From the NCBI GenBank assembly GCA_016868355.1, contig VGHB01000001.1:62001-126000 (forward strand): DNA of 64,000 nt, read 5' to 3'. Below the pieces are notes generated by a model. The model worked only from the letters and a program-made list of their open reading frames with translations, was not told where the DNA came from and did no database searches. A program made the translations under genes and the position numbers. This DNA comes from Betaproteobacteria bacterium. GTDB taxonomy: Bacteria; Pseudomonadota; Gammaproteobacteria; Burkholderiales; Burkholderiaceae_C. Numbering within the stretch: the stretch's first letter is position 1; every line of letters starts with the position of its first letter. Positions 25,941 to 42,699 of the stretch are shown here, in pieces.

Positions 25941-26708
25941 TCAGGCGGCTTGTGACCCACGATGTGCCCACCCCGTGGTCCTCTTTTCCACCAGCGAAAA
26001 GAGCTCATACATGGCCATGGCCATGGCGCCGATGACCACCAGGCCGGCAAAGGCCAGGGGCAGTCGCTGTTGCGATCCAGCGGTCTGCATGAGGTAGCCG
26101 ATCCCGGAGTCTCCAGCGGTCATTTCGGCCAACACCGTTCCCACAAACGCCAAGGTAATAGCCACCTTCAGCGAGCCGTAAAAGTAGGGCATCGAGCGCG
26201 GCAGGCCCACTTTGACCAGGACGTCCCAGCGCTTGGCGCCCAGCACCCGCAGCACATCTTCGAGTTCAGGCTCGAGAGTGGCCAGACCGGTGGCGATGTT
26301 GACCGTGATGGGGAAGAAGGAAATGAGGAAGGCGGTGAGGACGCCTGGTCCCAAACCGATCCCAAACCACACCACCAGTATGGGAACAATGGCAGCCTTG
26401 GGCACCGCGTTGAAGGCCACCATCAATGGGTATAGCGCGGTGTAAGCTAAACGCGAAGACCCGATCAAAAAACCCAGCAAAACCCCTACGACAATCGACA
26501 AGCCAAAACCCAGCATGGTGACCCAGAAAGTCTTCCATCCGGCTTCCAATAGGGGACCCTTAAATTGAATGAACTCACCGGCGATCTGCCACGGCCCCGG
26601 AAAGATGTAATCAGGAATCGACAGCGCACTGACAAAGGCTTGCCACACCAGCAGGATGGCGGCCAACACAATCAAGGGCGACCAACGTTCGAGTGTCTTG
26701 TGTTTCAC
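25941..26708 (-). CDS. ABC transporter permease (SsuC/TauC type)
   Basis: Inner-membrane permease of an NMT1/SsuA-type importer, 255 residues from a GTG at 26708. This start lies 7 bp after the ATPase stop and mirrors the 7-bp-plus-GTG junction upstream; a start further up would lie inside the ATPase gene. About six hydrophobic helices are seen, with the EAA-like loop GLATLEPELEDVLRVLGAKRWDVLVKVGLPRS near 145-175 (core EDVLRVLGA...GLP) that contacts the ATPase. It is the last gene of the SBP-ATPase-permease operon. Confidence 0.93.
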   Translation of the reverse strand: MKHKTLERWSPLIVLAAILLVWQAFVSALSIPDYIFPGPWQIAGEFIQFKGPLLEAGWKTFWVTMLGFGLSIVVGVLLGFLIGSSRLAYTALYPLMVAFNAVPKAAIVPILVVWFGIGLGPGVLTAFLISFFPITVNIATGLATLEPELEDVLRVLGAKRWDVLVKVGLPRSMPYFYGSLKVAITLAFVGTVLAEMTAGDSGIGYLMQTAGSQQRLPLAFAGLVVIGAMAMAMYELFSLVEKRTTGWAHRGSQAA

Positions 26709-26715
26709 GGTGTTC

Positions 26716-27549
26716 TCACTGTGGCAGACCGCTGCCCTGCCCGACCGGCTGGCGAATGGCGCCGATATGCCCACGCAATTCGTGCACGATGTCAGTGAAC
26801 GCAGGGGTGTAAGTCACCTCTAGGTCGCGTGGGCGCGGCAAGTCGATGTGTCTGCGAACTACGAAGCGGCCCGGGCTGCGGCTCATCACGTACACGGTAT
26901 CGGCTAAAAAAACGCTTTCCCTCAGATCATGGGTAACCAAGATGACATTGAACTTCTGCGCCGCATGCAGATCTCGCAATGCGCACCATAACTCCTCACG
27001 GGTGAAAGCATCCAATGCACCAAAAGGCTCGTCCAGCAGCAGCATCTGGGGTTCGTGAACCAGCGCGCGACAGATGCTGGCACGCTGCTGCATACCGCCG
27101 GACAACTGCCATGGAAACTTATCCTCATAGCCGCCTAAGCCCACGCTCTTGAGCAGCGTACGGGCCTTTTCTGCAAACTCCCGGCGCCGGGTCTTGAACT
27201 GCGAGCGATAGGGCTCCACGATTTCCAGCGGCAACAACACGTTGTCGATCGTTGTGCGCCACGGCAGAAGACTGGGTGCCTGAAAGGCCATGCCACTGAT
27301 CTTCAGGGGCCCGGTCACCAGCTGTCCGGCAATGCGGATCTGCCCGCGGCTGGGCATCTTCAAGCCAGTGGTGAGTTTCATGAAGGTCGACTTGCCGCAC
27401 CCTGACGGTCCGACGATGGCAATGAAGTCGCCCTGCTGCACCTGAAGCGAAATGTCCTCTACCGCGAACTGTTCCTGGGCCAACAACTCTTCGTTGTAGG
27501 CCAGCCAGACATTCTGAAAATCAACGAAGGATGACGAGGCGGAGGACAC
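26716..27549 (-). CDS. ABC transporter ATP-binding protein (SsuB/TauB type)
   Basis: Nucleotide-binding subunit of the importer, 277 residues from a GTG at 27549. Motifs: Walker A GPSGCGKST near 60, Q-loop MAFQAPSLLPW, signature LSGGMQQR, Walker B MLLLDEPFGALD and switch VTHDLRES. These are typical of the nitrate/sulfonate/taurine/thiamine-precursor importer family. The GTG start follows the SBP stop by 7 bp; extending upstream would overlap the SBP gene with a non-homologous Ser/Cys/Arg-rich segment. Confidence 0.94.
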   Translation of the reverse strand: MSSASSSFVDFQNVWLAYNEELLAQEQFAVEDISLQVQQGDFIAIVGPSGCGKSTFMKLTTGLKMPSRGQIRIAGQLVTGPLKISGMAFQAPSLLPWRTTIDNVLLPLEIVEPYRSQFKTRRREFAEKARTLLKSVGLGGYEDKFPWQLSGGMQQRASICRALVHEPQMLLLDEPFGALDAFTREELWCALRDLHAAQKFNVILVTHDLRESVFLADTVYVMSRSPGRFVVRRHIDLPRPRDLEVTYTPAFTDIVHELRGHIGAIRQPVGQGSGLPQ

Positions 27550-27556
27550 GGTCTGT

Positions 27557-28624
27557 TTACTTCTTGGCTGGAGGCAGGACGTTGAGCTCAGCCTTGGAGG
27601 GCAGGAAGACATCGGTCCAAATGGAATCGGGATTGATGCGGGTCTTGGTAGCGTAAGCGTCAGACACCTGTGAAGCCATCAGTGCCAGGCGTCCCGGCAC
27701 TACCGCGCCAAAGCCCTCAGCACGGGCGTCCGGGCTGGCCACCACAGCGTCGATGGCCATACGCAGGCGGCGCTTCTCCAAGTCCACATTGATGATGCCG
27801 TCACGCGCTTTAACGAAGTCGATAGCGGCATCCGGGTTGGCCATCACGTCCTTGGCACCCTTGGTGAAGGCAGACAGAAATGCCTTCACCGCCGCCGGGT
27901 TATCTTTGATCATCTTGGGACTGGCGATGATCGCGTTTCCGTAGAGCTTCACCCCGTTATCGGCATAGGACATCACCACGATATCGCTGCTGTTCACACC
28001 GCGAGCTTCGAGGTTGAGCAAGGAGGTGAAGGAAAAGCCGGTGATAGCGTCCACCTCACCACGGGCCAGCATAGTCTCGCGCAGAGGCGGGTCCATGCTC
28101 ACCCAGGTCACATTGCCCAGACTGTTCGCCTTGGTGAAGATGGGGAAAGCCTTGCGGCCGGCATCAAACACCGGAGCACCTAGCTTCTTGCCGGTCAGGT
28201 CCGAGGGCTTGGCAATGCCGGTCTTTTTCAGGGTCAACACAGCTGCGGGTGTGTTGTTGTAAACCATCATCACGGCGACCGGCTTGTTAGGTGCGTCGGG
28301 GTTGTTTGCATGGAACTCCATAAGGGCTGCCAAGTCTGCAAAACCCATGTCGTAGGCACCGGAGGCCACACGCTGCACAGTACCCCCTGAGCCGTTGCCC
28401 GCATCGATCGTCACGTCAAGGCCCGCAGACTTATAGTGCCCTTTGGCCGAGGCGCCGAGAAACAAGGCCGCCGGGCCTTCAAAGCGCCAATCCAGCTGAA
28501 ACTTGATGGGAGTTTGGGCTTGCGCAGCCTGTGGGCTGATGCCGGCCGCCACAGCTGCCAGGGCCAGGACGGTGGAAGACAGAGTGCCCAGCAGGCGTCG
28601 GCGTGCAATGTGTACTGAGGTCAT
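27557..28624 (-). CDS. NMT1/THI5-like ABC substrate-binding protein
   Basis: Periplasmic binding protein of 355 residues. The ATG at 28624 is chosen for its GGAG Shine-Dalgarno six nt upstream and because it begins an Arg-rich (ARRRLLGT) signal with a hydrophobic core and AQA cleavage site. The mature protein starts QTPIKFQLDWRFEGP and contains GHYKSAGLDVTI and GSGGTVQRVASGAYDMGFAD, characteristic of NMT1-like proteins. The family carries thiamine-pyrimidine precursors, nucleobases, sulfonates and others; linkage to purine genes suggests a purine or related heterocycle, which is inference. It is the first gene of its three-gene operon. Confidence 0.92.
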   Translation of the reverse strand: MTSVHIARRRLLGTLSSTVLALAAVAAGISPQAAQAQTPIKFQLDWRFEGPAALFLGASAKGHYKSAGLDVTIDAGNGSGGTVQRVASGAYDMGFADLAALMEFHANNPDAPNKPVAVMMVYNNTPAAVLTLKKTGIAKPSDLTGKKLGAPVFDAGRKAFPIFTKANSLGNVTWVSMDPPLRETMLARGEVDAITGFSFTSLLNLEARGVNSSDIVVMSYADNGVKLYGNAIIASPKMIKDNPAAVKAFLSAFTKGAKDVMANPDAAIDFVKARDGIINVDLEKRRLRMAIDAVVASPDARAEGFGAVVPGRLALMASQVSDAYATKTRINPDSIWTDVFLPSKAELNVLPPAKK

Positions 28625-28754
28625 GAAAAGCTCCATTGAGGGTGGGGGGGGTACAGCTGAGGTCAAAGTGATCGGCAAGCAAAAGCCATGCGCGCCGGGT
28701 GGCACTACTTCGGTGCACAGGGGCGGTAAAGGGCGATATCAACAGGGTGGCGCA

Positions 28755-29453
28755 TCAAACATGCTCCTTTAGTGCATCGGCCAGGTCCGGCGCCCTCGGG
28801 TCGAGCCGTAGATTGCGCTCCACCTGCCCAATGTGGGACTCAGCCAAGCGCACCGCCACATCGGTCTGCCGCTGATCCAGCGCGTCCACGATAGCCTCGT
28901 GTTCGGCCGATGACTCGGCAGCCGACTGTGAGGACTGGTACATCAGCGAGATCAGGCGTGAGCGCGACAGCAGATCCGACTGCAGCTCTTCAAGCACCCG
29001 GTTACCGGTCATTCGGGCCAACAGGCTGTGAAAGTGTGCCAACAGGCGTGTGCGCTCAGCCACGTGATTCAGTGCAATGGCCTCACGTTCGGCCTTGAGG
29101 TGCGCACGCAATTCTGCGATCTGAGACCTGGAAATACGCTCAGCTAACAAACGCATCATGGCGCCCTCCAACATCTGCCGAAGTTCAAAGACCTGATGGG
29201 CCTCTTCAACGCTCGGCGTAGCCACGAATGCCCCACGCGCAGGCTCCAGGGTAACCAAGCGGTCTCGGCTGAGTTGATTGAGGGCCTGACGCACCACCGT
29301 GCGCGAGACCGCAAAGATGTCGGCCAAGCGCTGCTCGGCAAGCTTGGTGCCTGGCATCAGTCGCCCTTCCACGACAGCCGCCGTGATGGAGTCAACGATG
29401 CGATGGGTGGTGGTCGTGGCGGCGCCGCGTGGCATGGATACGGATTGATCCAT
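28755..29453 (-). CDS. GntR-family (FadR/FCD subfamily) transcriptional regulator
   Basis: A 232-residue repressor-like protein. Winged HTH about 15-80 (GTKLAEQRLADIFAVSRTVVRQALNQLSRDRLV) and an all-helical FCD ligand-binding domain about 90-215, with metal/ligand residues in the FHSLLARMTGNRVL and SAEHEAIVDALDQR segments. The family usually senses small carboxylates or intermediates and autoregulates. Its promoter carries a perfect CTGTATACAG palindrome. Its position between the NMT1 transporter operon and adenine deaminase makes it the candidate local regulator of the purine cluster. Confidence 0.93.
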   Translation of the reverse strand: MDQSVSMPRGAATTTTHRIVDSITAAVVEGRLMPGTKLAEQRLADIFAVSRTVVRQALNQLSRDRLVTLEPARGAFVATPSVEEAHQVFELRQMLEGAMMRLLAERISRSQIAELRAHLKAEREAIALNHVAERTRLLAHFHSLLARMTGNRVLEELQSDLLSRSRLISLMYQSSQSAAESSAEHEAIVDALDQRQTDVAVRLAESHIGQVERNLRLDPRAPDLADALKEHV

Positions 29454-29544: not shown

Positions 29545-30621
29545 CTAGCCCCGCGCGCCAGCAGCAAAGTGCTCATCCAAGCGCTGCGCCCATTGCAGCT
29601 TGAGCGCCGGCGGTGCAAAGCTGGCCATCAAGCTGTTTCGCAGAAGTTGCCACATGTGCTGTGCACTCAGACTGGGGTGAGCCGCCAACAAAGCGGTGTA
29701 GTTCTCGTTTAGATAGCCACCAAAGTAAGCCGGGTCGTCGCTGTTGACGGTCACCACCAGCCCAGCGCGTAACAGCCCGGGCAGGTTATGGGCAGCTAGG
29801 CTCGGGAACACACACAGTTTGATGTTAGACAGCGGACACACCGTCAGCGGTATTCCCTCGCGAACCAAGCGCTGCACAAGATCAGGGTCCTCGGTACAGC
29901 GCACGCCATGGTCAATGCGCTGCGCTTTCAAAAGGTCCAGTGCAGCGGTGATGTAGGCTGCGGGGCCCTCTTCGCCTGCATGGGCTACCCGGTGCAGACC
30001 CAACTCGCCGGCACGCGCAAAGACCCTCGCAAATTTCTCGGGTGGGTGCCCAACTTCGGAGGAGTCCAGCCCAACACCTATAAAGTGATCGCGATAGGGC
30101 ATCGCCTCTTCCAAGGTTTGCAACGCAGCCTCTTCAGTGAGGTGGCGCAGAAAACACAGGATCAGCTCGGCACGCAAGCCCCATACCTGCTGTGCTTGGT
30201 CACAGGCACGCTTGAGGCCTTGGATCACCACGCCCATCGGCACGCCGCGCTGCGTATGGGTTTGTGGGTCAAAGAACAGCTCTGCACACACCACGCCTTC
30301 AGCAGCGGCCCGTTTTAGGTAGGCCCAAGCCATATCGTGGAAGTCCTGCTCGGTCAACAACACACTGGCTCCGGCGTAATACACATCCAAAAAACTTTGA
30401 AGGTCCTTGAAGGCATAGGCTGAGCGCAGTGCCTGCACACTAGGGTATGCGAGGGTGACCCCATTTCGAGCAGCCAAGTCAAAGATCAACTCAGGCTCCA
30501 ACGAGCCTTCAATGTGGATGTGCAGTTCGGCCTTGGGTGCCGTACGCACAAGAGCCACCAGCTCATCGGATTCGATGCGGCCGAAGTCGATCGGGCGGCT
30601 GGGGGTGTCAAAGGTGCTCAT
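29545..30621 (-). CDS. Adenine deaminase (adenosine deaminase-like fold)
   Basis: Deaminates adenine to hypoxanthine. The 358-residue TIM-barrel metalloenzyme has zinc ligands His34 and His36 (AELHIHIEGS), HAGEEGP near 210, and the late Asp pair NSDDPAYFGGY. The combination GVGLDSSEVGHPP, HAGEEGP and RIDHGVRCTEDPDLV matches the adenine-deaminase (ADE) branch rather than true adenosine deaminases, which carry different residues in these loops. The ATG at 30621 is used; an upstream in-frame TTG would add three residues. Adenosine deamination remains a possible alternative or side activity. It lies between the Rieske gene and gntR on the same strand. Confidence 0.87.
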   Translation of the reverse strand: MSTFDTPSRPIDFGRIESDELVALVRTAPKAELHIHIEGSLEPELIFDLAARNGVTLAYPSVQALRSAYAFKDLQSFLDVYYAGASVLLTEQDFHDMAWAYLKRAAAEGVVCAELFFDPQTHTQRGVPMGVVIQGLKRACDQAQQVWGLRAELILCFLRHLTEEAALQTLEEAMPYRDHFIGVGLDSSEVGHPPEKFARVFARAGELGLHRVAHAGEEGPAAYITAALDLLKAQRIDHGVRCTEDPDLVQRLVREGIPLTVCPLSNIKLCVFPSLAAHNLPGLLRAGLVVTVNSDDPAYFGGYLNENYTALLAAHPSLSAQHMWQLLRNSLMASFAPPALKLQWAQRLDEHFAAGARG

Positions 30622-30693
30622 GGCATTCAATCAAGTGCTCAGTGAAAAAATAAAGGGGCGATACCAACTGGGCTGCTTGACACCCACGGCCGC

Positions 30694-31659
30694 TCAGCAC
30701 ACACCAGCCCCAATGCCGCAAGCCTTGAGGTAGCGCCGATAGGCCGCGCTCAGTCGATCGGCAGCGGACATGGCCTCGCTACCGGAAAGCGGTAAGGCCT
30801 TGGGCTCTTGTGACTCGAGGATGGGCTGGTCCTGCGCAAAGATGGCGAGTTGGAAGTCGCGCAAAGCGTCGTCGGGGGTGTGTTCATCGGTCGTGTACTG
30901 GGCAAACCACAGCCGGCAGCTTCCATCGGTCTGAGGACAGGCCCAAATGACGTAGCTGTCTTGTGCCATGCTGGCCTGTTCGCCACGCTTGGTCAGCAGC
31001 GCTGCATATGGGCTGAGCACTTCATAGCGGTATTCCACCCACGCCCCATCCTGCGCGCTGGCTGAAGCGCGGGGCTGCCAGGCTCGGTAGCACTCGATGA
31101 CGGGGCGGCCACCATCGGTATGGCTGACTTCATAGCTGGGCACCTCCGGGTGGGCGGCATCGCCAAGCCACCCCTCATGCACATAGGCGAAGTGGGCGGT
31201 GTCCAGAAAGTTCTCCACGGCACGCGGGGCGCTTGTGGCCACGTCAAACGGCCCGTAGATGAGGCGCCGATCGGGCAAGCCCTTCAGGAGGGGCACCGGG
31301 TGCTGAGGCACCGCCAGGGCGGCCCAAACCAGTCCATGGGCCAGTTGCAGGCGATGGGCACATGCACGGCTTGAGTCTGGCGGTGTGAAACCGGGCTGCG
31401 CGGGGATGGCCACGCACTGGCCGTCTGCGCCGAAACGCCAGCCATGATAAGGACACTGCACAGATTGGCCCTGCACGCGCCCCATCGACAACCGTGCCCC
31501 GCGGTGGGGGCAGCGGTCGGTCAAAAGGGACAAATCACCACCAGCGGTTTTCCACAACACCAGACGTTCGCCCAGCAACTGCAGCGCCTGGGGGTCTGGC
31601 CCAACGTCCTCGACCCGGGCCACAGGCCACCACCAAGAGTGCTCAATCAACACAGACAC
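30694..31659 (-). CDS. Rieske-type non-haem iron oxygenase
   Basis: A 321-residue Rieske oxygenase alpha subunit. The [2Fe-2S] ligands are Cys50/His52 and Cys69/His72 (CPHRG...CPYHGW). The mononuclear iron site is NFLDTAHFAYVH, with Asn150, Asp153, His156 and His161. It resembles VanA-like demethylases and the HpxD group. In Klebsiella, HpxDE oxidises hypoxanthine, and Ndm enzymes N-demethylate methylxanthines, so a purine or methylpurine substrate is plausible from the neighbourhood but unproven. No reductase partner is nearby. The start is a GTG at 31659; another GTG at 31653 sits better behind AAGG. An intrinsic terminator ends 14 nt upstream. Confidence 0.88.
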   Translation of the reverse strand: MSVLIEHSWWWPVARVEDVGPDPQALQLLGERLVLWKTAGGDLSLLTDRCPHRGARLSMGRVQGQSVQCPYHGWRFGADGQCVAIPAQPGFTPPDSSRACAHRLQLAHGLVWAALAVPQHPVPLLKGLPDRRLIYGPFDVATSAPRAVENFLDTAHFAYVHEGWLGDAAHPEVPSYEVSHTDGGRPVIECYRAWQPRASASAQDGAWVEYRYEVLSPYAALLTKRGEQASMAQDSYVIWACPQTDGSCRLWFAQYTTDEHTPDDALRDFQLAIFAQDQPILESQEPKALPLSGSEAMSAADRLSAAYRRYLKACGIGAGVC

Positions 31660-31672
31660 CTTGCCAAAAGGT

Positions 31673-31711
31673 GAAAAAAAACGCCGCTCAGCATACGATG
31701 CATGGCGGCGT
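31673..31711 (-). terminator. Intrinsic terminator between the BMP lipoprotein gene and the Rieske gene
   Basis: Minus strand: ACGCCGC (31711-31705) pairs with GCGGCGT (31687-31681), with an inner GCAT/ATGC pairing, followed by eight consecutive T (31681-31674). It should end the nucleoside-importer transcript. The Rieske start codon is only 14 nt beyond, so Rieske expression would need readthrough or a promoter within the hairpin. Confidence 0.85.
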
Positions 31712-31762: not shown

Positions 31763-32902
31763 TCACTTGCCTGACGGCACCTTGCCCTCAACGCCCTTCA
31801 CATAGAAGTCGATCTTGTCGCGCCAGGCTTGATCGGCTTTTTGGTCCTTGGCCAGGCGTTCCTTGCCGGCGTTGTCGACGATGGGTCCTGTGAAGACTTC
31901 AAAGGATCCGTCCTTCATGCCTGCCTTGATTTCACCAACCTTTTTCTTGGCAGCCTCGGGGACTACGTCGTTGATCTTGATCAGGTCATTGAGGCCTTCC
32001 TTGACGCCCCAGACGGTGCGATCAGTCTTCCAGGTGCCGCCCTTAAGGTCCTCCATCGCCTTGATGTAGTACGGGCCCCAGTCCACGATGGCCGAGGCCA
32101 GGTGGGCCTTGGGCCCGAAGGCGCTCATGTCACTGTCCCAGCCAAAGGCGTACTTGCCGTTCTTTTCAGCCGTTTGGAGCACGGCTGTGGAATCAGTGTT
32201 TTGTAGCAGGACATCTGCCCCCTGGTTGATCAAACTCTGGGCAGCTTCGCTTTCTTTCGGTGGATCAAACCAGGTGTTCACCCATACCACCTTGGTCTTG
32301 ATCTTGGGGTTCACGCTCTGAGCGCCCAATGTAAAGGCGTTGATGTTGCGCAGGACTTCAGGGATAGGAAAGGAGCCCACAAAACCCAAGGTGTTGGACT
32401 TCGACATGGCCGCGGCAATCACGCCGGCCATATAGGTATCTTGGTAGAAGCTGGCATCGTAGATGCGCATGTTGGGCGCATCCTTGTAGCCGGTGGCGTG
32501 CTCGAACTTCACGTCCGGAAACTCACCGGCCACCTTAAGCATGGCGTCCATGTAGCCGAAGCTGGTGGCGAAAATGATCTTGTTACCCTGCTGCGCCAGG
32601 TCGCGAATCACGCGCTCCGCGTCGGCGCCCTCCGGCACCTTTTCGACGAACGTAGTCTTGACCGCGTCGCCGAACTTGGCCTCGACTGCCTTGCGGCCCA
32701 GATCGTGCGCAAAGGACCAGCCAGCGTCACCCACCGGGCCCACATAAATCCATGCGGCTTTGATTGGCTCGGGTTTGGCCGCAGCCGGTGCAGCAGCGGG
32801 CTTGGCCTCTTCCTTCTTGCCGCATCCGCTCAGAGCCAGGGTGGCCGATACCAGCGATAGTGCAGCTACTTGTATCAAGGTGCGCTTGGAACGCAGCGTC
32901 AT
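31763..32902 (-). CDS. BMP/PnrA-family nucleoside-binding lipoprotein
   Basis: Substrate-binding lipoprotein of a nucleoside ABC importer, 379 residues. The ATG at 32902 follows GGAG by six nt and begins a signal ending in lipobox LSGC (Cys27), then an Ala/Pro/Lys linker. The BMP domain follows: AAWIYVGPVGDAGWSFAHDLGR, FATSFGYMDAMLKVA, GFVGSFPIPEVLRNINAF and WDSDMSAFGPKAHLAS. Family members (PnrA/TmpC, BmpA) bind purine nucleosides. An upstream open extension of 131 residues is rejected. The gene is last in the ATPase-permease-permease-SBP set and is followed by a strong terminator. Confidence 0.94.
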   Translation of the reverse strand: MTLRSKRTLIQVAALSLVSATLALSGCGKKEEAKPAAAPAAAKPEPIKAAWIYVGPVGDAGWSFAHDLGRKAVEAKFGDAVKTTFVEKVPEGADAERVIRDLAQQGNKIIFATSFGYMDAMLKVAGEFPDVKFEHATGYKDAPNMRIYDASFYQDTYMAGVIAAAMSKSNTLGFVGSFPIPEVLRNINAFTLGAQSVNPKIKTKVVWVNTWFDPPKESEAAQSLINQGADVLLQNTDSTAVLQTAEKNGKYAFGWDSDMSAFGPKAHLASAIVDWGPYYIKAMEDLKGGTWKTDRTVWGVKEGLNDLIKINDVVPEAAKKKVGEIKAGMKDGSFEVFTGPIVDNAGKERLAKDQKADQAWRDKIDFYVKGVEGKVPSGK

Positions 32903-32964
32903 AAACGTCTCCGATGACAGGGTGGAACAGGAATGAACACAAACCTTGATTATGGAACCAAAAT

Positions 32965-33885
32965 TTATTGTCCAGGGTGAAAGGCGCGCCCCAAGGAAGC
33001 CGGCATGTTCACTCTCAGCCAATTGGCGTTGCGGGAAATCAACACCAGCACCAAGATGGTGCTTAGGTAGGGCAGCATGGCCAACAGTTGACTGGCGATT
33101 TGCACCCCCTGGCCCTGCAAGTGAAACTGCAGCATCGTGACGCCACCGAACAAATAGGCGCCAAACAACACGCGCACGGGACGCCAGGTGGCAAAAGTGG
33201 TCAAGGCCAATGCAATCCAACCGCGGCCAGCCACCAGACCCTCGACCCACATGGGCGCGTAGACCACCGACAGAAAAGCCCCTGCCAGCCCACACAAAGC
33301 GCCACCAGCCACCACCGCAGCGAGCCGAATCAGGCGTACGCGATAGCCCAAGGCGTGAGCCGATTCGGGTGACTCGCCAATCGAGCGCAACACAAGTCCC
33401 GAACGGGTCCGGTAGAGAAACCAGACGATGGCTGCTGTCATGGCCAGGGCCACATACGCCATCGGATGCTGCTGAAACAGCATCGGCCCGACAAACGGAA
33501 GCTCGCCGAGCACAGGTACCTCGTGCAGGGATCGGTCGGCCAGCTTTTTGCCCACCAGACCCACGCCCACAAACGCCGAAAACCCGGCGCCGAACAGCGA
33601 CAGGGCCAGACCGGTGGCGTATTGGTTCGTGTTGAGCCAGATGACCATGGCACCGAAGACCGCTGCCGCCGCTGCCCCGGCTGCAGCGCCGGCCGCGAAG
33701 GCAGCCACATCGCTGCCTGTGTGGAAAGCTACTGCGAAACCAGTGACCGCTGCCATCAGCATCAGCCCTTCAGCCCCGAGGTTAAGCACGCCCGCACGCT
33801 CATTGAGCAGCAGGCCCAGACCAGCCAGGGCCACCGGTGTACCCGAGGCGATGGCCGCAGCCAGCAACAGGGCCCATTCGTTCAT
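32965..33885 (-). CDS. Nucleoside ABC transporter permease 2 (YufQ/NupQ-like)
   Basis: A 306-residue inner-membrane permease of the BPD_transp_2 family, with about 8-9 hydrophobic helices. The N-terminal LLLNERAGVLNLGAEGLMLMAA is the signature seen in BMP-linked permeases and branched-chain-type importers. The ATG at 33885 overlaps the preceding permease stop as ATGA, so the longer open frame is not used. It pairs with permease 1 to form the translocation path for nucleosides bound by the BMP lipoprotein. Confidence 0.94.
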   Translation of the reverse strand: MNEWALLLAAAIASGTPVALAGLGLLLNERAGVLNLGAEGLMLMAAVTGFAVAFHTGSDVAAFAAGAAAGAAAAAVFGAMVIWLNTNQYATGLALSLFGAGFSAFVGVGLVGKKLADRSLHEVPVLGELPFVGPMLFQQHPMAYVALAMTAAIVWFLYRTRSGLVLRSIGESPESAHALGYRVRLIRLAAVVAGGALCGLAGAFLSVVYAPMWVEGLVAGRGWIALALTTFATWRPVRVLFGAYLFGGVTMLQFHLQGQGVQIASQLLAMLPYLSTILVLVLISRNANWLRVNMPASLGRAFHPGQ

Positions 33886-35045
33886 GACGGACTCTCGGCG
33901 GCTGTGGCGACCTGGGAAGACGACGGGCTGCGAGGCTTCCATCGAACGCGGTGCGTCACCAGGGTATCGCAGGCCAGCAGCAGGAACAGCAAGAGTCCTT
34001 GAAAGACGCCCGTCAGCGCGTTGGGCAGACCCATGCGCGATTGCGCCAACTCACCACCGATGAGCACCATTGACAGCAGCAGGCCGCCCACCAAAATGCC
34101 CGCCGGGTGCAGGCGCCCGACAAACGCCACAATGATGGCGGTGAAACCATAACCAGTGGACACATGGGGCGTCAATCGTTGTAGGGGGCCAGCCGCCTCC
34201 ATTGCACCGGCCAGCCCAGCCATCGCACCGGAAATCAACAGTGCGGCCCACAAGGCACGACGTTCCGAAAATCCGGCAAAACGCGCTGCCGCGGGTGCAA
34301 GGCCGCCCACTTGCAGCTGAAACCCCTGCCACGACCGAAACAGGAAGATCGCAAAACCGACCACCGCCAAGAGCGCCAACACGGAGCCTGCGTGCAAGCG
34401 GGTACCTCCCAACAGCGAGGGCAGCAGCATCGTGCCATCAAAGCTGGGGGTTTGCGGAAAGTTGAAGCCCTGGGGGTCCTTCCAGGGCCCGAAAACCAAG
34501 TAGTTCAGCAGCTGTTGCGCCACATAAACAAGCATCAGGCTGACCAGAATTTCGTTGGCGTTGTACCGATCCTTCAGCCAGGCGGTCAGCCCCGCCCAAG
34601 CCATGCCACCCAGCACCCCAGCTAGGAGCACCACGGGCGCGTAAAGACCACGGATGGCCGCCTCGGCTCCCGGGCCAGTGCCTGCGCTGCCCCCTGTTAC
34701 ACCGGGCAGTCCCAAGCCAGCCAACCAAAGTGCAGCGCCACTGGCACAGATGGCACCCAACAGGAATTGGCCTTCGGCCCCGATGTTCCACACATTGCTG
34801 CGGTAGCACACGGCCAGGCCCAATGCGCACAAAACCAGCGGAGTAGCCTTGAGCAGCACCTCACCGATCAAGCGCAAATTGGCCAAAGGCTCCACAAAAA
34901 ACATGGACAGGCCCCTCATCGGGTCTTTGCCCAACAAGGCGAACAACGTCCCGGCCAACACCGTGGTCAGAAACAGTGCCATAAAGGGCGAAGCCCAGGT
35001 CATCACTACCGAAGGCTGAGAGCGTCGCTCAAGGTGCAGGCTCAT
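33882..35045 (-). CDS. Nucleoside ABC transporter permease 1 (YufP/NupP-like)
   Basis: A 387-residue permease with about ten hydrophobic helices, including the conserved CYRSNVWNIGAEGQFLLGAI motif near residue 90 that marks this subfamily. The ATG at 35045 (MSLHLERRSQ) overlaps the ATPase stop as ATGA. Its downstream end overlaps permease 2 in the same way, so ATPase and both permeases appear translationally coupled. Confidence 0.94.
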   Translation of the reverse strand: MSLHLERRSQPSVVMTWASPFMALFLTTVLAGTLFALLGKDPMRGLSMFFVEPLANLRLIGEVLLKATPLVLCALGLAVCYRSNVWNIGAEGQFLLGAICASGAALWLAGLGLPGVTGGSAGTGPGAEAAIRGLYAPVVLLAGVLGGMAWAGLTAWLKDRYNANEILVSLMLVYVAQQLLNYLVFGPWKDPQGFNFPQTPSFDGTMLLPSLLGGTRLHAGSVLALLAVVGFAIFLFRSWQGFQLQVGGLAPAAARFAGFSERRALWAALLISGAMAGLAGAMEAAGPLQRLTPHVSTGYGFTAIIVAFVGRLHPAGILVGGLLLSMVLIGGELAQSRMGLPNALTGVFQGLLLFLLLACDTLVTHRVRWKPRSPSSSQVATAAESPS

Positions 35046-36568
35046 GCGCGCTCCCAAAGGCCTGACATCCACTGCCCGATTCGCTCGGTCGTGGCCTGCG
35101 CCCTGGGCATCGGGGGCGACAGTTGGCCTTTGCTCATCACAACAAGGCGATCGGCCAGCTCAAGTAACTCATCGAGTTCTTCGGAAATCACCAACACTGC
35201 GGTTCCAGCATCGCGAAGCGCCAACAAAGCTGCACGGATCTGCACTGTGGCGCCCACATCCACACCCCACGTGGGCTGGGCCACGATCAAGACATCGGGC
35301 CGCGCATCGATTTCCCGCCCAACGATGAACTTCTGAAGGTTGCCACCCGACAGCGACTGGGCCAGCGAATCGGGACCTCCGGTGCGCACGTCGTAGCGAT
35401 CAATCAAACTGGCCGCAAGCGCCTTCATACGGCCTCTGTTGATCCACCACCCCCGCTCCACGGGCTCGGACCGGGTCAGCAAGGTGTTCTGCGCCAAGCT
35501 CATGCTGGGTACAGCACCCCGCCCCAAGCGCTCTTCAGGAATGAAGTGCAGACCTAGACGCCGACGCTGTGCCGCAGAAAAACGGCTGATGTCGGTGCGG
35601 TGCAGTTCAATCGTCCCTGGCTGAGCCCGACGGTCTTCACCGGACAGGCAGGCCAGCAGCTCACGCTGGCCGTTGCCAGAGACCCCAGCCACGCCCAGAA
35701 TCTCGCCAGCGTGCACCTGCAGTTTGATCCCCTGAAGATCAGTGCCGAATGGGTCGTCGCGCGGCACGCTCAAACCCCGTACCGTCAGCGCGGGTGCTCC
35801 GGCCGCCTGGGTGCGGTGCTGCAGCTGCAACGGATCGCTGCCGATCATCAGGCGCGACAGTGACGCCTCGCTTTCAAGACGCGGGTCGCACCTACCGGTC
35901 ACACGACCACCGCGTAAAACAGTGCAGGCGGTGCACAGGGCCCGAATCTCATGCAACTTATGGCTGATGTAGACAATGCTGCAACCCTGTGCGGCCAAGC
36001 GCCTTAGCACGTCGAACAGGCGCTCCACTGCAGAAGGCGTAAGCACCGAAGTGGGTTCATCCAAGATAAGCAGTTGGGGCTCTCCTAGGAGGGCCCGGAT
36101 AATTTCGACCCGCTGACGCTCACCCACACTCAAGGTATGCACCGGCCGTTGAGGTTCGACCTCTAGACCATAGGCTGCCGCCTTTTCGGCGATGCGTTGC
36201 GCCACATCGCCCAAGCTGACTTCAGAGCCCAGCCCTAAGCACACGTTCTCCGCCACGCTCAGGGTGTCAAACAGGCTGAAGTGCTGGAACACCATGCTGA
36301 TGCCCAAGGCTCGGGCCTGTTGCGGGCCTCGAATGTCCACCGCTTGGCCATTGAACTGCACCTGGCCCGCATCAGGGAGCACAGCACCATAGATGATCTT
36401 CATCAAAGTGCTCTTCCCGGCGCCATTTTCGCCCAACAGGGCGTGGATTTCGCCAGCCTGCACCGTCAGATCGATGCGATCGTTGGCCACTACAGATGGG
36501 TAACGCTTGGTGATACCGCGCAAACACAAGCGCGGCACAGCGGACAGCATGGGGTGCGCGGTAGCCAT
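35042..36568 (-). CDS. Nucleoside ABC transporter ATP-binding protein (double NBD, YufO/NupO-like)
   Basis: A 508-residue protein with two fused ABC domains, as in sugar and nucleoside importers. Domain 1 (about 12-240) has Walker A GENGAGKST, signature LSVGERQRVEI and Walker B LLILDEPTSVLTP. Domain 2 (about 260-500) has a degenerate Walker A GVSGNGQREL, signature LSGGNLQKFIVGRE and a Walker B-like VLIVAQPTWGVDVGA. The degenerate second site is typical of this family. It starts 16 bp after guanine deaminase, so the deaminase and importer may share a transcript. Confidence 0.95.
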   Translation of the reverse strand: MATAHPMLSAVPRLCLRGITKRYPSVVANDRIDLTVQAGEIHALLGENGAGKSTLMKIIYGAVLPDAGQVQFNGQAVDIRGPQQARALGISMVFQHFSLFDTLSVAENVCLGLGSEVSLGDVAQRIAEKAAAYGLEVEPQRPVHTLSVGERQRVEIIRALLGEPQLLILDEPTSVLTPSAVERLFDVLRRLAAQGCSIVYISHKLHEIRALCTACTVLRGGRVTGRCDPRLESEASLSRLMIGSDPLQLQHRTQAAGAPALTVRGLSVPRDDPFGTDLQGIKLQVHAGEILGVAGVSGNGQRELLACLSGEDRRAQPGTIELHRTDISRFSAAQRRRLGLHFIPEERLGRGAVPSMSLAQNTLLTRSEPVERGWWINRGRMKALAASLIDRYDVRTGGPDSLAQSLSGGNLQKFIVGREIDARPDVLIVAQPTWGVDVGATVQIRAALLALRDAGTAVLVISEELDELLELADRLVVMSKGQLSPPMPRAQATTERIGQWMSGLWERA

Positions 36569-36584: not shown

Positions 36585-37880
36585 TCAGGCGATGTCAGGC
36601 GCCACGCGCCCGGCCACCACCACCGACCGCAGCAGACGCTCATCGCCCAGCATCAACCATGCAAATACCCGCTCATGCAGGCTGCGTGTCAGCGCCAGGC
36701 GATGCTCGAGGGCTGGGTCCTGCGCCCAATCCCATACGGTGATGTCGGCCGTGCACCCCGCTTCCAGGCGACCGACTTCTTGGTCCAGGCACAGGGCTTG
36801 GGCAGCCCCCAGGGTCACCGAGTGCAGCGCCGACCATGCGGTCAGCCGCTGGCCCAACAGCGCTTGCACTTGGTAGGCCGCTGCCAGATTGCGCAACAGG
36901 TTCAGGCTGGTACCACCGCCCACGTCGCTGGCCGTGCACACCCGCACACCCGCCTCGCGCGCTTGGCGCCAATTGAACAAGCCACTGCCCAGGAACAAAT
37001 TGGATGAGGGGCTGTGTGCGAGGGTGGCCCCTGCAGCCTGCAGGCGCGATCGGTCCTCGTCATCCAACCAGATTCCGTGGGCCAGTACCGTCCGTCGATT
37101 CAACAAGCCACGGCTGGAGTAGACGCCGAGGTAACTGCGCGACTCTGGGAAGAGCTCACGCACCCATTGCACCTCAGCCTGGTTCTCGGCTACGTGGCTT
37201 TGAAGATACAGGCTGGGGTCGTCGCGCAGCAGCTCTGCAGCCATGGCCAGCTGTTCTTCGGTGGAAGTGGGCGCAAAGCGTGGCGTTACCGCGTAGGCCA
37301 ATCGCCCGCAGCCGTGCCAGCGCCGAATAAGCCGACGGCAGGCTTGCTCCGCACCTGACACATCGTCCTGCAGCTGCGGCGGCACATGTCGGTTCATCAG
37401 CACCTTGCCGGTTATCAAGCGCATCCCCTGTGCATGCGCGGCTGCAAATAACGCGTCAGTTGCTGCTTCGTGCACGGTTGAAAAAGCCAGTGCCGCCGTG
37501 GTGCCGTGGCGCAACAAGGCCCTGATGAATCGCTGTGCTCCGTCGTGCGCGATGCGCTCGTTATCAAAGCGGGCTTCCGCAGGGTAGGTATACTCGTGCA
37601 ACCAAGTCATCAACTCGGCGCCGTAACTGGCCAACACATCGAGTTGTGGAGCATGTACATGGGTGTCAATCAAGCCAGGCATCACCAACCGGTCGCCGTG
37701 GTCTATTCGACGCCAGTCAGGGCCAGGCGGTTCGGCCTGCACTGCTTCGATACGATGCCCCCGAACCAACAACCAGTGGTCGGGTCGCCAGCGGACCTGG
37801 GGCGACTGCACCTGAGCCCAGGCGGGCTCACCGGTGAAGTCAAGAAGATTGCCACGTAGGGCCCAGTTTTCGTTTGCCAT
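36585..37880 (-). CDS. guaD: Guanine deaminase
   Basis: Hydrolyses guanine to xanthine and ammonia. The 431-residue amidohydrolase has zinc ligands in DTHVHAPQLDVL near 80, SHVAENQAEV near 240 and LAHGIWLDD near 280, and the late DVGGGTSLN. The motifs YTYPAEARFDN and GTTAALAFSTVH are characteristic of bacterial guanine deaminases. I start at ATG 37880 (MANENWALRGNLLDF); an upstream in-frame extension would cross the divergent xdhA promoter. It is divergent from xdhA with 66 bp between starts. Confidence 0.95.
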   Translation of the reverse strand: MANENWALRGNLLDFTGEPAWAQVQSPQVRWRPDHWLLVRGHRIEAVQAEPPGPDWRRIDHGDRLVMPGLIDTHVHAPQLDVLASYGAELMTWLHEYTYPAEARFDNERIAHDGAQRFIRALLRHGTTAALAFSTVHEAATDALFAAAHAQGMRLITGKVLMNRHVPPQLQDDVSGAEQACRRLIRRWHGCGRLAYAVTPRFAPTSTEEQLAMAAELLRDDPSLYLQSHVAENQAEVQWVRELFPESRSYLGVYSSRGLLNRRTVLAHGIWLDDEDRSRLQAAGATLAHSPSSNLFLGSGLFNWRQAREAGVRVCTASDVGGGTSLNLLRNLAAAYQVQALLGQRLTAWSALHSVTLGAAQALCLDQEVGRLEAGCTADITVWDWAQDPALEHRLALTRSLHERVFAWLMLGDERLLRSVVVAGRVAPDIA

Positions 37881-37946
37881 AGTGGAGCGCGACTCGAGTA
37901 CGAGGATAGCGCACACCATCGGGACTGAATGCATTACCGTATACCC

Positions 37947-39494
37947 ATGAACGTTGAAGCCCGACCGATACGATTTCTGCACCGCAACCGCGTGGTGCAC
38001 GCCGCCGACCTGCCCCCCACCACAACTGTGCTGACTTGGCTGCGCGAGCAGGCCGCCTGCACCGGCACCAAGGAGGGTTGCAACGAGGGTGACTGTGGCA
38101 CCTGTATGGTTGGTGTGGCCGAACTGCTGGCTGACGGCCAGTTGGAGTTGCGCAACCTAAACGCGTGCATGCTGTACCTGCCCGCGCTGGACGGTAAAGC
38201 CTTGTTCACGGTGGAAGACTTAGCCCCTGCTCCAAACTCTACCCTGCACCCCGTGCAGCAGGCTTTGGTGGACCATCACGGCAGCCAATGTGGCTTTTGT
38301 ACGCCGGGCTTCGTGATGACGATGTGGGCGCAGTGGGAACAGGCGCAGCACAACAATCGAACACTGAGCCGTCAAGAATGGGCCGACGCATTGGCGGGCA
38401 ACCTGTGTCGTTGCACGGGGTACCGCCCCATCTTGGACGCTGCCCAGGCCTGTGTAGACCAGCCGGCACCCAAGGGTCCGCTGGACCGAGCCGCCTTGGG
38501 CGACGCTTTGAGAGCCCTGCGCTGCTCGACGTCGCTTGATTACTGTGCACACGACCCAGCCTTTGGTGCGCCACGCCGCTTCACGGCCCCCCAAAGCAGC
38601 GATGACCTGGCCGCCGTGCTGCAGGCCTACCCGCAAGCTTGCATCTTGGGGGGGGCAACGGACGTGGCCCTTTGGACCAACAAGGCCCATCGTGATGTAG
38701 AGCATTTGGTCTACACCGGAGCGGTCGCCGAACTGCAGCGTGCCTACGACGATGAAGGCTGGGTCCGAATCGGAGGGGCCACCAGCCTCGAGTCGGCCTG
38801 GGCCCACCTAGCCGGTCACTGGCCGGCACTCGGTGACCTGTGGCGGCGGTTTGCCTCCCCTCCCGTGCGACACGCAGGAACCTTGGCAGGCAACGTGGCC
38901 AACGGTTCGCCCATCGGCGACGGTGCACCCGTGCTAATGGCGCTCAACGCACGATTGGTCCTTCGCCGTGGGCCGCTGCGGCGCACCGTGCCCCTTGAGA
39001 ATTTCTATCTCGGCTATCAGCGTAAAGACCTACAAGCTGGCGAATTTATCGAGTGGATTGAGGTGCCTGTGCCAACACCTGATCAACACTTTCATGCTTG
39101 GAAGGTGTCCAAGCGATATGACAGCGACATATCGGCTGTGTGCGGCGCATTCGCCCTGCACTTTGCTAGCCCCGCCACGCAGTCTGCGGTTTCCACCGAG
39201 CCCGGGCGGGTGAACGCTGAGGGGACACGGGTTTTAAAGGGCGTGACCTTCGCTTTTGGTGGATTGGCCGCCACCGTGCAGCGTGCTCGCGGCGCGGAGC
39301 AAGCCCTGTTGCAGCAAGGCTGGGACCGCACTGGGCTGCAGGCGGCTCAAGCGGCATTGGCACAAGACTTTCAACCCTTGAACGACTTGCGCGCCAGCGC
39401 AGACTACCGGTTGCAAGTTGCTCGGGCTTTGCTGGAGCGGCTGTGGCATTCACTTGAGTCGCCAACGGCCTTGCAATTGGAGGTCTGGCGATGA
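37947..39494 (+). CDS. xdhA: Xanthine dehydrogenase small subunit (2[2Fe-2S] and FAD)
   Basis: Electron-transfer subunit of the molybdenum hydroxylase that converts hypoxanthine to xanthine to urate. The plant-type ferredoxin domain has Cys45, Cys50, Cys53 and Cys74 (EGCNEGDCGTC, NAC). The second cluster domain has Cys115/Cys118 (CGFC) and Cys153/Cys155 (CRC). The FAD domain from about 195 includes ILGGATDVALW and HAGTLAGNVANGSPIGD, then a CO-dehydrogenase flavoprotein C-terminal domain. It is 515 residues from ATG 37947; an ATG at 37929 would add six. A GTATAC core sits 3 bp before the start. It overlaps xdhB by ATGA. Confidence 0.96.
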   Translation: MNVEARPIRFLHRNRVVHAADLPPTTTVLTWLREQAACTGTKEGCNEGDCGTCMVGVAELLADGQLELRNLNACMLYLPALDGKALFTVEDLAPAPNSTLHPVQQALVDHHGSQCGFCTPGFVMTMWAQWEQAQHNNRTLSRQEWADALAGNLCRCTGYRPILDAAQACVDQPAPKGPLDRAALGDALRALRCSTSLDYCAHDPAFGAPRRFTAPQSSDDLAAVLQAYPQACILGGATDVALWTNKAHRDVEHLVYTGAVAELQRAYDDEGWVRIGGATSLESAWAHLAGHWPALGDLWRRFASPPVRHAGTLAGNVANGSPIGDGAPVLMALNARLVLRRGPLRRTVPLENFYLGYQRKDLQAGEFIEWIEVPVPTPDQHFHAWKVSKRYDSDISAVCGAFALHFASPATQSAVSTEPGRVNAEGTRVLKGVTFAFGGLAATVQRARGAEQALLQQGWDRTGLQAAQAALAQDFQPLNDLRASADYRLQVARALLERLWHSLESPTALQLEVWR

Positions 39495-41854: not shown

Positions 41855-42699
41855 ATACGGCCGAACTCAAGCAAGAGGCCTCGCGATGGCTTGAGCGGGG
41901 CCACCGGGCGGTGCTGGTACAACTGCGCGCGGTCAAAGGGTCTACACCGCGCGCTGCGGGCACCCGTATGGTGGTGGGCTGCGACAGCGTCTTAGGAACG
42001 ATTGGGGGCGGCCACCTTGAATGGAAGGCCCAAGCAACCGCCCAACGATTGCTGGACGGCAGTATCGATTGGCCTGCGCCTGAGCGGATAGCCTTGGGCC
42101 CTACTCTTGGCCAGTGTTGTGGAGGATCGGTGGAGTTGGTCTTCGAAGCCTTGTGCGAAGCCAGCATCGCAGCCTGGAAACTGCCGCCCATGCGGTTTCA
42201 TCTGTGCCTGTATGGAGCAGGGCATGTGGGCCAAGCCCTGGTTCGGTTGCTGCACGACCTGGATGTCTCGATAGACTGGCTGGACAGCCGAGAAGGCGCA
42301 TTTCTTGGCCTACACAGTCGCCCCAGGCTTGGCCTGCGAACCTGGGTCAGCGACGACCTGGCTGCCGATGCGGTTCGCTCACCGCCGGGCGCCCACCACC
42401 TGGTGATGACCCACCATCATGGCTTGGACTTTGAAGTCGTCCTGAAGTTGCTTAGCCGTCACGACACGGGTTTGGTGGGCCTCATAGGGTCGAAGACCAA
42501 ACGAGCGCAGTTTGAGCACCGTCTGATCGAGCGTGGAATCGAGGCTACCCGCGTTGCTGACTTGGTATGCCCCATCGGCGCCCCCGGCATAGAAGGAAAG
42601 GAGCCTGCTGTGGTGGCCGTTGCCGTGGCGGCTCAACTGTTGAGCCTGCCCGCAACCCAGCAAAGCCAAGGGTGTCGACTTGGAAGCCCCCGGTCCTAA
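41851..42699 (+). CDS. xdhC: XdhC molybdenum-cofactor sulfuration/insertion factor
   Basis: Chaperone that binds and protects the sulfurated molybdenum cofactor and delivers it to XdhB. The 282-residue protein has the XdhC/CoxI N-terminal domain (VKGSTPRAAGTRMVV, LGTIGGGHLEWKA, LGPTLGQCCGGSVEL, with the Cys pair thought to matter for cofactor handling) and a C-terminal Rossmann domain (LYGAGHVGQALVRLL, TGLVGLIGSKTKRAQF). The GTG start at 41851 overlaps the xdhB stop as GTGA; a longer frame inside xdhB is rejected. A GC-rich hairpin follows 9 bp after the stop. Confidence 0.95.
   Translation: MNTAELKQEASRWLERGHRAVLVQLRAVKGSTPRAAGTRMVVGCDSVLGTIGGGHLEWKAQATAQRLLDGSIDWPAPERIALGPTLGQCCGGSVELVFEALCEASIAAWKLPPMRFHLCLYGAGHVGQALVRLLHDLDVSIDWLDSREGAFLGLHSRPRLGLRTWVSDDLAADAVRSPPGAHHLVMTHHHGLDFEVVLKLLSRHDTGLVGLIGSKTKRAQFEHRLIERGIEATRVADLVCPIGAPGIEGKEPAVVAVAVAAQLLSLPATQQSQGCRLGSPRS

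Follow-up and report, generated by a model that had tools for sequence, protein, structure and literature searches.

Within the window, by which we mean the whole 64-kb stretch of DNA analysed here, a series of purine-related genes on the minus strand runs in the order guanine deaminase, double ATPase, two permeases, BMP lipoprotein, Rieske oxygenase, deaminase, GntR regulator and NMT1-type transporter, with the XdhABC genes placed divergently to this operon on the plus strand (Table 1). A longer version of the BMP open reading frame (31763-33295) runs into the permease gene. The deaminase gene is the next one downstream of the Rieske gene, and its start is probably the ATG at 30621, with a gap of 72 nt and no overlap between the two genes. 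The window's own genome also encodes the urate oxidase PuuD (C4:7762-8670, 2.7e-126). A purine link of NMT1-like genes is described in an excerpt of PMC7373994.

Table 1. Genes and other features of the purine locus in the window
Feature	Coordinates	Strand	Basis
NMT1-type ABC transporter (binding protein, ATPase, permease)	25941-28705	-	
GntR/FCD regulator	28755-29453	-	
Deaminase (adenosine deaminase by NCBIfam, Pa0148 type closest)	29545-30630	-	NF006850, 532.8 bits against a cut-off of 419
Rieske oxygenase alpha subunit	30694-31659	-	Pfam, ligand residues, fold
Terminator-like hairpin (31681-31711) followed by a T run, between the BMP and Rieske genes	31674-31711	-	
BMP-family substrate-binding lipoprotein, 379 aa from the Met at 32902	31763-32902	-	
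ABC permease (BPD_transp_2)	32965-33942	-	
ABC permease (BPD_transp_2)	33882-35072	-	
Double ABC ATPase of BMP-type transporter	35042-36568	-	
Guanine deaminase	36585-38000	-	NF006679, 511.4 bits against 351; TIGR02967, 453.2 against 375.4
Xanthine dehydrogenase small subunit XdhA	37929-39494	+	
Xanthine dehydrogenase molybdopterin subunit XdhB	39491-41854	+	
XdhC accessory protein	41740-42699	+	

The open reading frame that the initial annotation had assigned to a Rieske oxygenase is real: it is complete on the minus strand and encodes a single chain of 321 residues, and the plus strand over the same interval is broken by internal stops. The true start of the gene is probably the TTG at 31650 (residue L4), three codons downstream, since many relatives begin with MIE at this point and an AAGGTG is present 6 nt upstream of it. 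Pfam profiles recovered a Rieske domain (2.1e-22) followed by a VanA_C catalytic domain (4.7e-20; 73 bits against a cut-off of 23.5), both of which pass the cut-off, and an AlphaFold2 model of the protein has a pLDDT of 94.3 and a pTM of 0.92. In Rieske oxygenases the iron of each subunit is linked to the cluster of its neighbor through the aspartate of the ENFxD motif, and a carboxylate towards the C-terminus supplies the third iron ligand. An alignment of 30 sequences, namely that of the window and 29 relatives, showed that the CxH...CxxH cluster ligands C50, H52, C69 and H72 are invariant (30/30), as are D153, H156, H161 and D277, the last of these in a QDQP motif (30/30). We take D153 to be the bridging aspartate rather than an iron ligand, with D205 of naphthalene dioxygenase as its presumed counterpart. 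Because a C-terminal carboxylate is expected in this family, and the invariant D277 fits this position, D277 is the expected third iron ligand alongside H156 and H161. Thus, all seven residues in the ligand list of the initial annotation occur at the numbers given there, but D153 was wrongly counted among the iron ligands and D277 was missed. The accompanying view of the enzyme as active is supported by the invariant cluster and iron-site residues, and the product is confirmed as an intact and, as judged from these residues, active-looking Rieske oxygenase.

Of 150 genomes from the same family, 47, its own included, contain strong relatives of the Rieske gene, defined by at least 44% identity (the matches in G110 and G061 are partial, and G052, at 36%, was scored as negative). 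Apart from the window itself these relatives are 44-70% identical to it, and below this range long alignments drop to at most 36%. In 22 of 30 short loci of about 4 kb, own included, the BMP and deaminase genes both adjoin the Rieske gene. From a collection of named genomes we analysed the best 80 of 578 confirmed matches, which come from Rubrivivax, Tepidimonas, Comamonas, Delftia, Acidovorax, Variovorax, Hydrogenophaga, Rhodoferax, Duganella and other genera; the gene is carried, for example, by Acidovorax sp. GW101-3H11 (L108), for which we found no fitness-data paper in the open-licence literature. The 80 loci were divided into a core of 64 and a remainder of 16 after the tree described below and the gene contexts had been seen, with L103-L105 lying outside the tree. 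Where the core loci leave room for the neighboring gene, the BMP gene is directly upstream of the Rieske gene in 49/58, the deaminase gene directly downstream in 52/63, and both conditions hold in 42/57; the 36 long core loci additionally encode XdhA (24), guanine deaminase (26) and the ATPase (34). Core locus L063 shows no purine genes near the Rieske gene and a potassium transporter upstream of it, and L056 and L079 have only a BMP or amidohydrolase gene, 2-3 kb away. Among the non-core loci, L110, L114, L115, L117, L120 and L121 contain Rieske relatives without purine genes nearby. At L114 (567-8589), from a MAG filed as gammaproteobacterial, there are at least three such Rieske genes, with a TonB receptor and an MFS transporter nearby. 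In annotated plasmid records the distant relatives are mostly named "aromatic ring-hydroxylating dioxygenase subunit alpha".

The Rieske gene is also closely coupled to the deaminase gene in the core loci: the two genes overlap in 29/53, by 1 nt in 22 and by 4 nt in 7 of them, and the distance from the Rieske stop to the deaminase ATG is between -16 and +22 nt in 45/53, the ATG nearest the stop having been taken as the deaminase start, which biases these counts towards overlap. Hence the purine-island context proposed in the initial annotation is borne out, and is further backed by the conserved operon place in relatives, whereas the label "orphan" is overturned by this same conserved place and by the overlap with the deaminase gene in relatives. 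The terminator-like hairpin provides a complementary view of the operon. We surveyed 54 BMP-Rieske junctions in all, window included. At lengths of 25-400 nt, which omits 11/54 of them, a hairpin is present in 36/43, with 0.5 expected from shuffles in which two-letter blocks are moved, a control that is not truly dinucleotide-preserving. Rieske-deaminase junctions within the same length limits (35/54 omitted) show it in 0/19, and in genomes lacking the Rieske gene it is found in 14/17 of the BMP-deaminase junctions of suitable length (2/19 omitted). This contrast between junctions suggests that the hairpin ends the transporter part and that the Rieske gene belongs with the enzyme part; the segment 31674-31711 would then be a putative terminator-like element closing the former. 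In 19 of 30 deaminase loci from these Rieske-negative genomes, the deaminase gene immediately follows the BMP gene. As the BMP-deaminase arrangement thus exists without the Rieske gene, the neighborhood alone cannot identify the product base.

Among solved chains the deaminase best matches 3ou8, 3pan, 3pao and 3pbm (3.6e-117) and 3rys (1.3e-107), with the next match far behind (2.1e-32). The PDB and NCBIfam titles of its relatives read "adenosine deaminase"; we take the first four chains (Pa0148) and 3rys to be adenine deaminases, and presume that cog1816 is the family of the window's deaminase. The PA0148 product is called an adenine deaminase in the excerpted text of PMC6629668, and an excerpt of PMC13296781 places in cog1816 a cytokinin deaminase for which adenine is not a substrate. 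Since cog1816 includes an enzyme that refuses adenine, adenine need not be the substrate of the deaminase. A further setting of interest is L116 (1216-8514), where the gene immediately after that of a relative 39% identical to the Rieske protein encodes a xanthine phosphoribosyltransferase (224 bits against a cut-off of 138), with genes for an 8-oxoguanine deaminase, an NMT1 transporter and the allantoinase PuuE also nearby. To judge from its gene content, this locus is another free-base setting for a Rieske relative.

We placed the Rieske protein in a maximum-likelihood tree of 36 rows, comprising the window, 24 loci from the named set of 80, 8 sequences from a plasmid collection, NdmA and two paralogs from the window's own genome; the two paralogs, which have long branches, served as the outgroup, and VanA, SxtT, GxtA and NdmC are not among the rows. 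The tree contains a core clade (n=12; 100/99), an HpxD-like clade (n=4; 100/99), made up of one annotated HpxD from Pantoea and three rows grouping with it, and an NdmA/B-like clade (n=3; 100/100), and the HpxD and Ndm rows are closer to each other than to the core clade (97/93). A single clade of core and HpxD-like rows was rejected (p-AU 0.0019), one of core and NdmA/B-like rows was weakly rejected (p-AU 0.0346), and one of the core and 13 kin rows was not rejected (p-AU 0.344). These sequence comparisons suggest that the Rieske protein belongs to a subfamily apart from HpxD and, weakly, from Ndm. The phylogenetic comparison that the initial annotation had suggested thus disfavors an HpxD identity and, less strongly, an Ndm identity. 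Clustering with enzymes for non-purine aromatics, which it had regarded as contrary evidence, was not seen among the sequences and structures compared, the nearest solved structures being SxtT and GxtA, followed by NdmA and NdmB.

A comparison of motifs and residues showed that: 1) the motif before the bridging aspartate is ENF in the Rieske group and in Ndm, versus EGF in the four HpxD rows. 2) Q195, Y210, K224, W251 and Q276 are present in all 25 core-plus-kin rows and missing from the four HpxD and three Ndm rows, with some of these residues also found in the Mycetohabitans and Nostoc rows. 3) An asparagine at position 270 occurs in the four HpxD rows, NdmA and 5/13 kin rows, and the window has Q270. 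4) In the NdmA QL mutant structures 6icp and 6icq, a comparison of chains indicates that N282 and F286 (our numbering) are replaced by Q and L as in NdmB; the window counterparts of these positions are Q270, as in NdmB, and F274, as in NdmA. With HpxD the Rieske protein shares a one-chain architecture of Rieske and catalytic domains, a purine role (putative in its own case) and 35% identity to the Pantoea protein (112/321 positions, 153 bits), but the latter has an adjacent PDR/VanB reductase gene, which the window's Rieske gene lacks. With NdmA and NdmB it shares full-length homology and a fold that is similar over nearly the whole chain (Z 31.9 for NdmA with caffeine and 30.5 for NdmB against the model), and an NdmB-like protein is 30% identical to it (138 bits); these likenesses contrast with the separate clade (p 0.035) and the absence of the five residues from the Ndm rows. 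The dicamba O-demethylase DdmC has the same overall fold (Z 29.5), but its sequence match is far weaker (1.1e-28, versus 3.2e-74 for SxtT), and the purine operon setting of the Rieske gene is a further difference.

Several plasmids carry other Rieske clusters. On the Klebsiella pneumoniae plasmid NZ_CP031818.1, typed as conjugative, the gene for an NdmB-like protein (1.4e-186 to 6icl) belongs to a caffeine-demethylase-like cluster (L126:7950-13479), together with genes for an oxygenase-like protein of 281 residues, a Rieske protein of 585 residues and a GST, and then for a 2-oxoglutarate oxygenase; the trio of oxygenase-like protein, Rieske protein and GST resembles ndmCDE in order and size. 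A comparable trio of a 301-residue oxygenase, a 588-residue Rieske protein and a GST is found beside a BMP-type transporter on the Sinorhizobium meliloti plasmid pB (L127:5383-11133), and on account of size and order we take it to be NdmC-NdmD-NdmE-like and a candidate rhizobial N7-methylpurine demethylase. A plasmid of Komagataeibacter nataicola from kombucha tea (L130:5953-12504) encodes an oxygenase 55% identical to NdmA and grouping with it, along with further Rieske genes, GSTs and a PDR/VanB reductase. In an Agrobacterium tumefaciens plasmid (L122:9977-11466) the Rieske and catalytic domains are on two separate adjacent genes, flanked by two sets of BMP-type transporter genes with amidohydrolases, and such split-gene pairs are named in most of 40 listed Rhizobium-type records.

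The question of electron supply was addressed at the level of the window, the genome and the relatives. No reductase of the VanB, HpxE or NdmD type is found in the 64-kb window, and a search of the window's own genome with HpxE (PDR/VanB family) as the query returned nothing at 1e-25, the best match, and the only PF00175 protein recovered, being a PaaE-like protein (31%, 3.7e-11). The four PF00175 proteins of this genome are PaaE-like (453 bits against a cut-off of 420.8), BoxA-like (748 against 459.2), BenC-like (198.5 bits, below the cut-off of 430) and Fpr-like (a protein of 284 residues named from two Pfam domains), and 0/4 contain a Rieske domain as in NdmD. HpxE is adjacent to the Rieske gene in 0/36 long core loci, and a weak NdmD-type match lies near it in one of these 36. 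A VanB/HpxE-type match at 1e-25 was recovered in 28/47 Rieske-positive genomes and in none of the remaining 19, own included; hence the Rieske gene has no dedicated reductase of that type as a constant partner. The absence of such a reductase from the window, noted in the initial annotation, is accordingly confirmed, and its suggestion that electrons come from elsewhere gains support, as no dedicated reductase gene was found in the rest of the genome either.

The presence of the Rieske gene was further compared with that of other purine-degrading enzymes across the 150 genomes. PuuD is present in 47/47 genomes with the Rieske gene versus 77/103 without it (Fisher 3e-5), and XDH, at a threshold of E 1e-150 that broken copies in fragmentary genomes may escape, in 45/47 versus 79/103 (Fisher 0.0044); these tests treat genomes as independent, ignoring shared ancestry, and six negative genomes in the counts were assigned by their absence from the positive rows. 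The two Rieske-positive genomes without an XDH match are 74% and 80% complete. Since PuuD and XDH accompany the Rieske gene so regularly, urate, xanthine and hypoxanthine require no additional enzyme, and this suggests that the Rieske gene supplements the purine pathway and replaces no step. A role as a molybdenum-free replacement of XDH is likewise made unlikely by the 45/47 genomes with XDH; an HpxD query at 1e-70 matched 0/369 genomes of the class, which leaves no HpxD-bearing set for comparison of XDH. The congeneric genome G037 (90% complete, 270 contigs) has about 290 bp between its porin and deaminase genes (L133). The XDH, guanine deaminase, BMP transporter and Rieske genes that stand between these two in the window are absent from this spot, and the deaminase, regulator and NMT1 genes are retained. 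Searches of G037 beyond this locus covered XDH (none at 1e-150), the Rieske gene (none at 1e-20) and PuuD (a partial match with a stop). Loss in G037 and gain in the line of the window are both possible, and either way the Rieske gene is one that travels with the catabolic block.

With hypoxanthine, xanthine and urate covered by other enzymes, the purines that these enzymes cannot take remain for the Rieske enzyme. Of the substrates put forward in the initial annotation, urate and hypoxanthine or xanthine thereby become less likely, and a methylpurine is the one we favor. We tentatively propose, with confidence that stops short of expecting it, that the Rieske enzyme is an N-dealkylase of methylated or otherwise modified purine bases, auxiliary to purine catabolism. 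Its purine role is supported by context. We infer N-dealkylation in preference to ring hydroxylation because N-alkylated bases from RNA turnover would be the most natural substrates, the N-demethylation of purines by Rieske enzymes such as NdmA and NdmB is known chemistry, and L116 offers a free-base setting; the identity to HpxD is no lower than that to the NdmB-like protein, so the sequence by itself does not favor either chemistry. In the proposed reaction, O2 and two electrons would be used, the latter reaching the active site via the [2Fe-2S] cluster across the subunit boundary of a predicted trimer, by a predicted path through Asp153 to the iron held by His156, His161 and Asp277. Hydroxylation would take place at an N-alkyl carbon of the modified purine and yield an aldehyde and the free base, which, as adenine, guanine, hypoxanthine or xanthine, could pass to the adenine-deaminase-type enzyme, guanine deaminase and xanthine dehydrogenase, with urate then going to PuuD. 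The electron donor would be a shared one rather than a dedicated HpxE or NdmD. A more specific version, which we consider unlikely as it stands, holds that these proteins are a third purine Rieske family, one that dealkylates the modified bases, N-alkylated adenines among them, which RNA and tRNA turnover sets free, the substrates perhaps including N-methyladenines and isopentenyladenine (a cytokinin), with the free base handed to the deaminase of the adjoining gene.

The principal alternative is an HpxD-like ring hydroxylase acting as a Mo-independent back-up for hypoxanthine and/or xanthine (or on C2/C8 of adenine) when XDH is without its cofactor. The full-length resemblance to the Pantoea protein, annotated as "molybdenum cofactor-independent xanthine hydroxylase HpxD", and the tie to an adenine-deaminase-type gene, for which hypoxanthine would be the next step, fit such a role; it is nevertheless somewhat less likely than N-dealkylation in view of the rejected common clade, the ENF in place of EGF, the absence of HpxE from the long core loci and of any VanB/HpxE-type match from 19 genomes, and the presence of XDH in nearly all Rieske-positive genomes. 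The literature also offers a point in its favor. Rieske-type dioxygenase genes located behind proteobacterial xanthine riboswitches are likened to hpxD/hpxE, and expected to have purine substrates, in an excerpt of PMC7373994, so that, as a concept, purine Rieske enzymes in proteobacteria are already in print. The dioxygenases described in that excerpt resemble ours in their proteobacterial purine context, NMT1-type transporter and prediction as purine oxygenases, but differ in the riboswitch: at the gathering score of Rfam 15, the only score used and with the xanthine family presumed to be part of that release, no xanthine riboswitch is found in the window or in any of the 32 loci scanned (15 core and 17 other). 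This too speaks against the HpxD-like role. On the Rieske subfamily itself we found no paper in the open-licence literature.

Alternatively, the Rieske enzyme might oxidize a purine-like or guanidinium heterocycle, or another small nitrogen compound carried by the same transporter, in the manner of SxtT and GxtA, rather than a nucleobase. SxtT is its best solved match by both profile (3.2e-74) and fold (Z 36.6 over 314 residues, rmsd 1.9), and GxtA is nearly equal (3.6e-74; Z 36.0 over 310 residues, rmsd 1.8); we take the substrates of these two, like those of NdmA and NdmB, to be N-rich heterocycles. However, SxtT and GxtA are cyanobacterial biosynthetic enzymes with only 29-31% identity (SxtT 29%) to a protein from a betaproteobacterial purine operon, HpxD too has SxtT as its best match, so that the resemblance does not discriminate, and both operon and co-occurrence point to nucleobases; we consider this reading improbable. 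An ordinary oxygenase of non-purine aromatics that sits in the purine operon by chance is very improbable: the VanA_C domain and the few relatives outside purine loci would allow for it, but the conservation of place and order across many genera and the frequent overlap with the deaminase gene argue against it. That the Rieske enzyme is a urate oxidase or another post-XDH enzyme, as its location with XDH might suggest, can practically be dismissed given PuuD in its own genome and in all 47 Rieske-positive genomes, and the filling of a gap left by a missing urate oxidase is ruled out by the PuuD of its own genome.

The recycling of methylated purine bases in bacteria is not well settled, and this conserved oxygenase, encoded together with purine transport, deaminase and XDH genes, is a concrete candidate for a part in it. 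For E. coli, an excerpt of a 2026 study (PMC13296781) describes the demethylation of modified bases as not established and N6,N6-dimethylated purines as supporting no growth. An assignment of function would also sharpen annotation, as generic ring-hydroxylating names are usual for the distant relatives. If the modified-adenine version of the N-dealkylase reading were true, the operon would represent a bacterial recycling route for modified nucleobases. More generally, the conserved oxygenase may allow these Burkholderiales to use modified purines.
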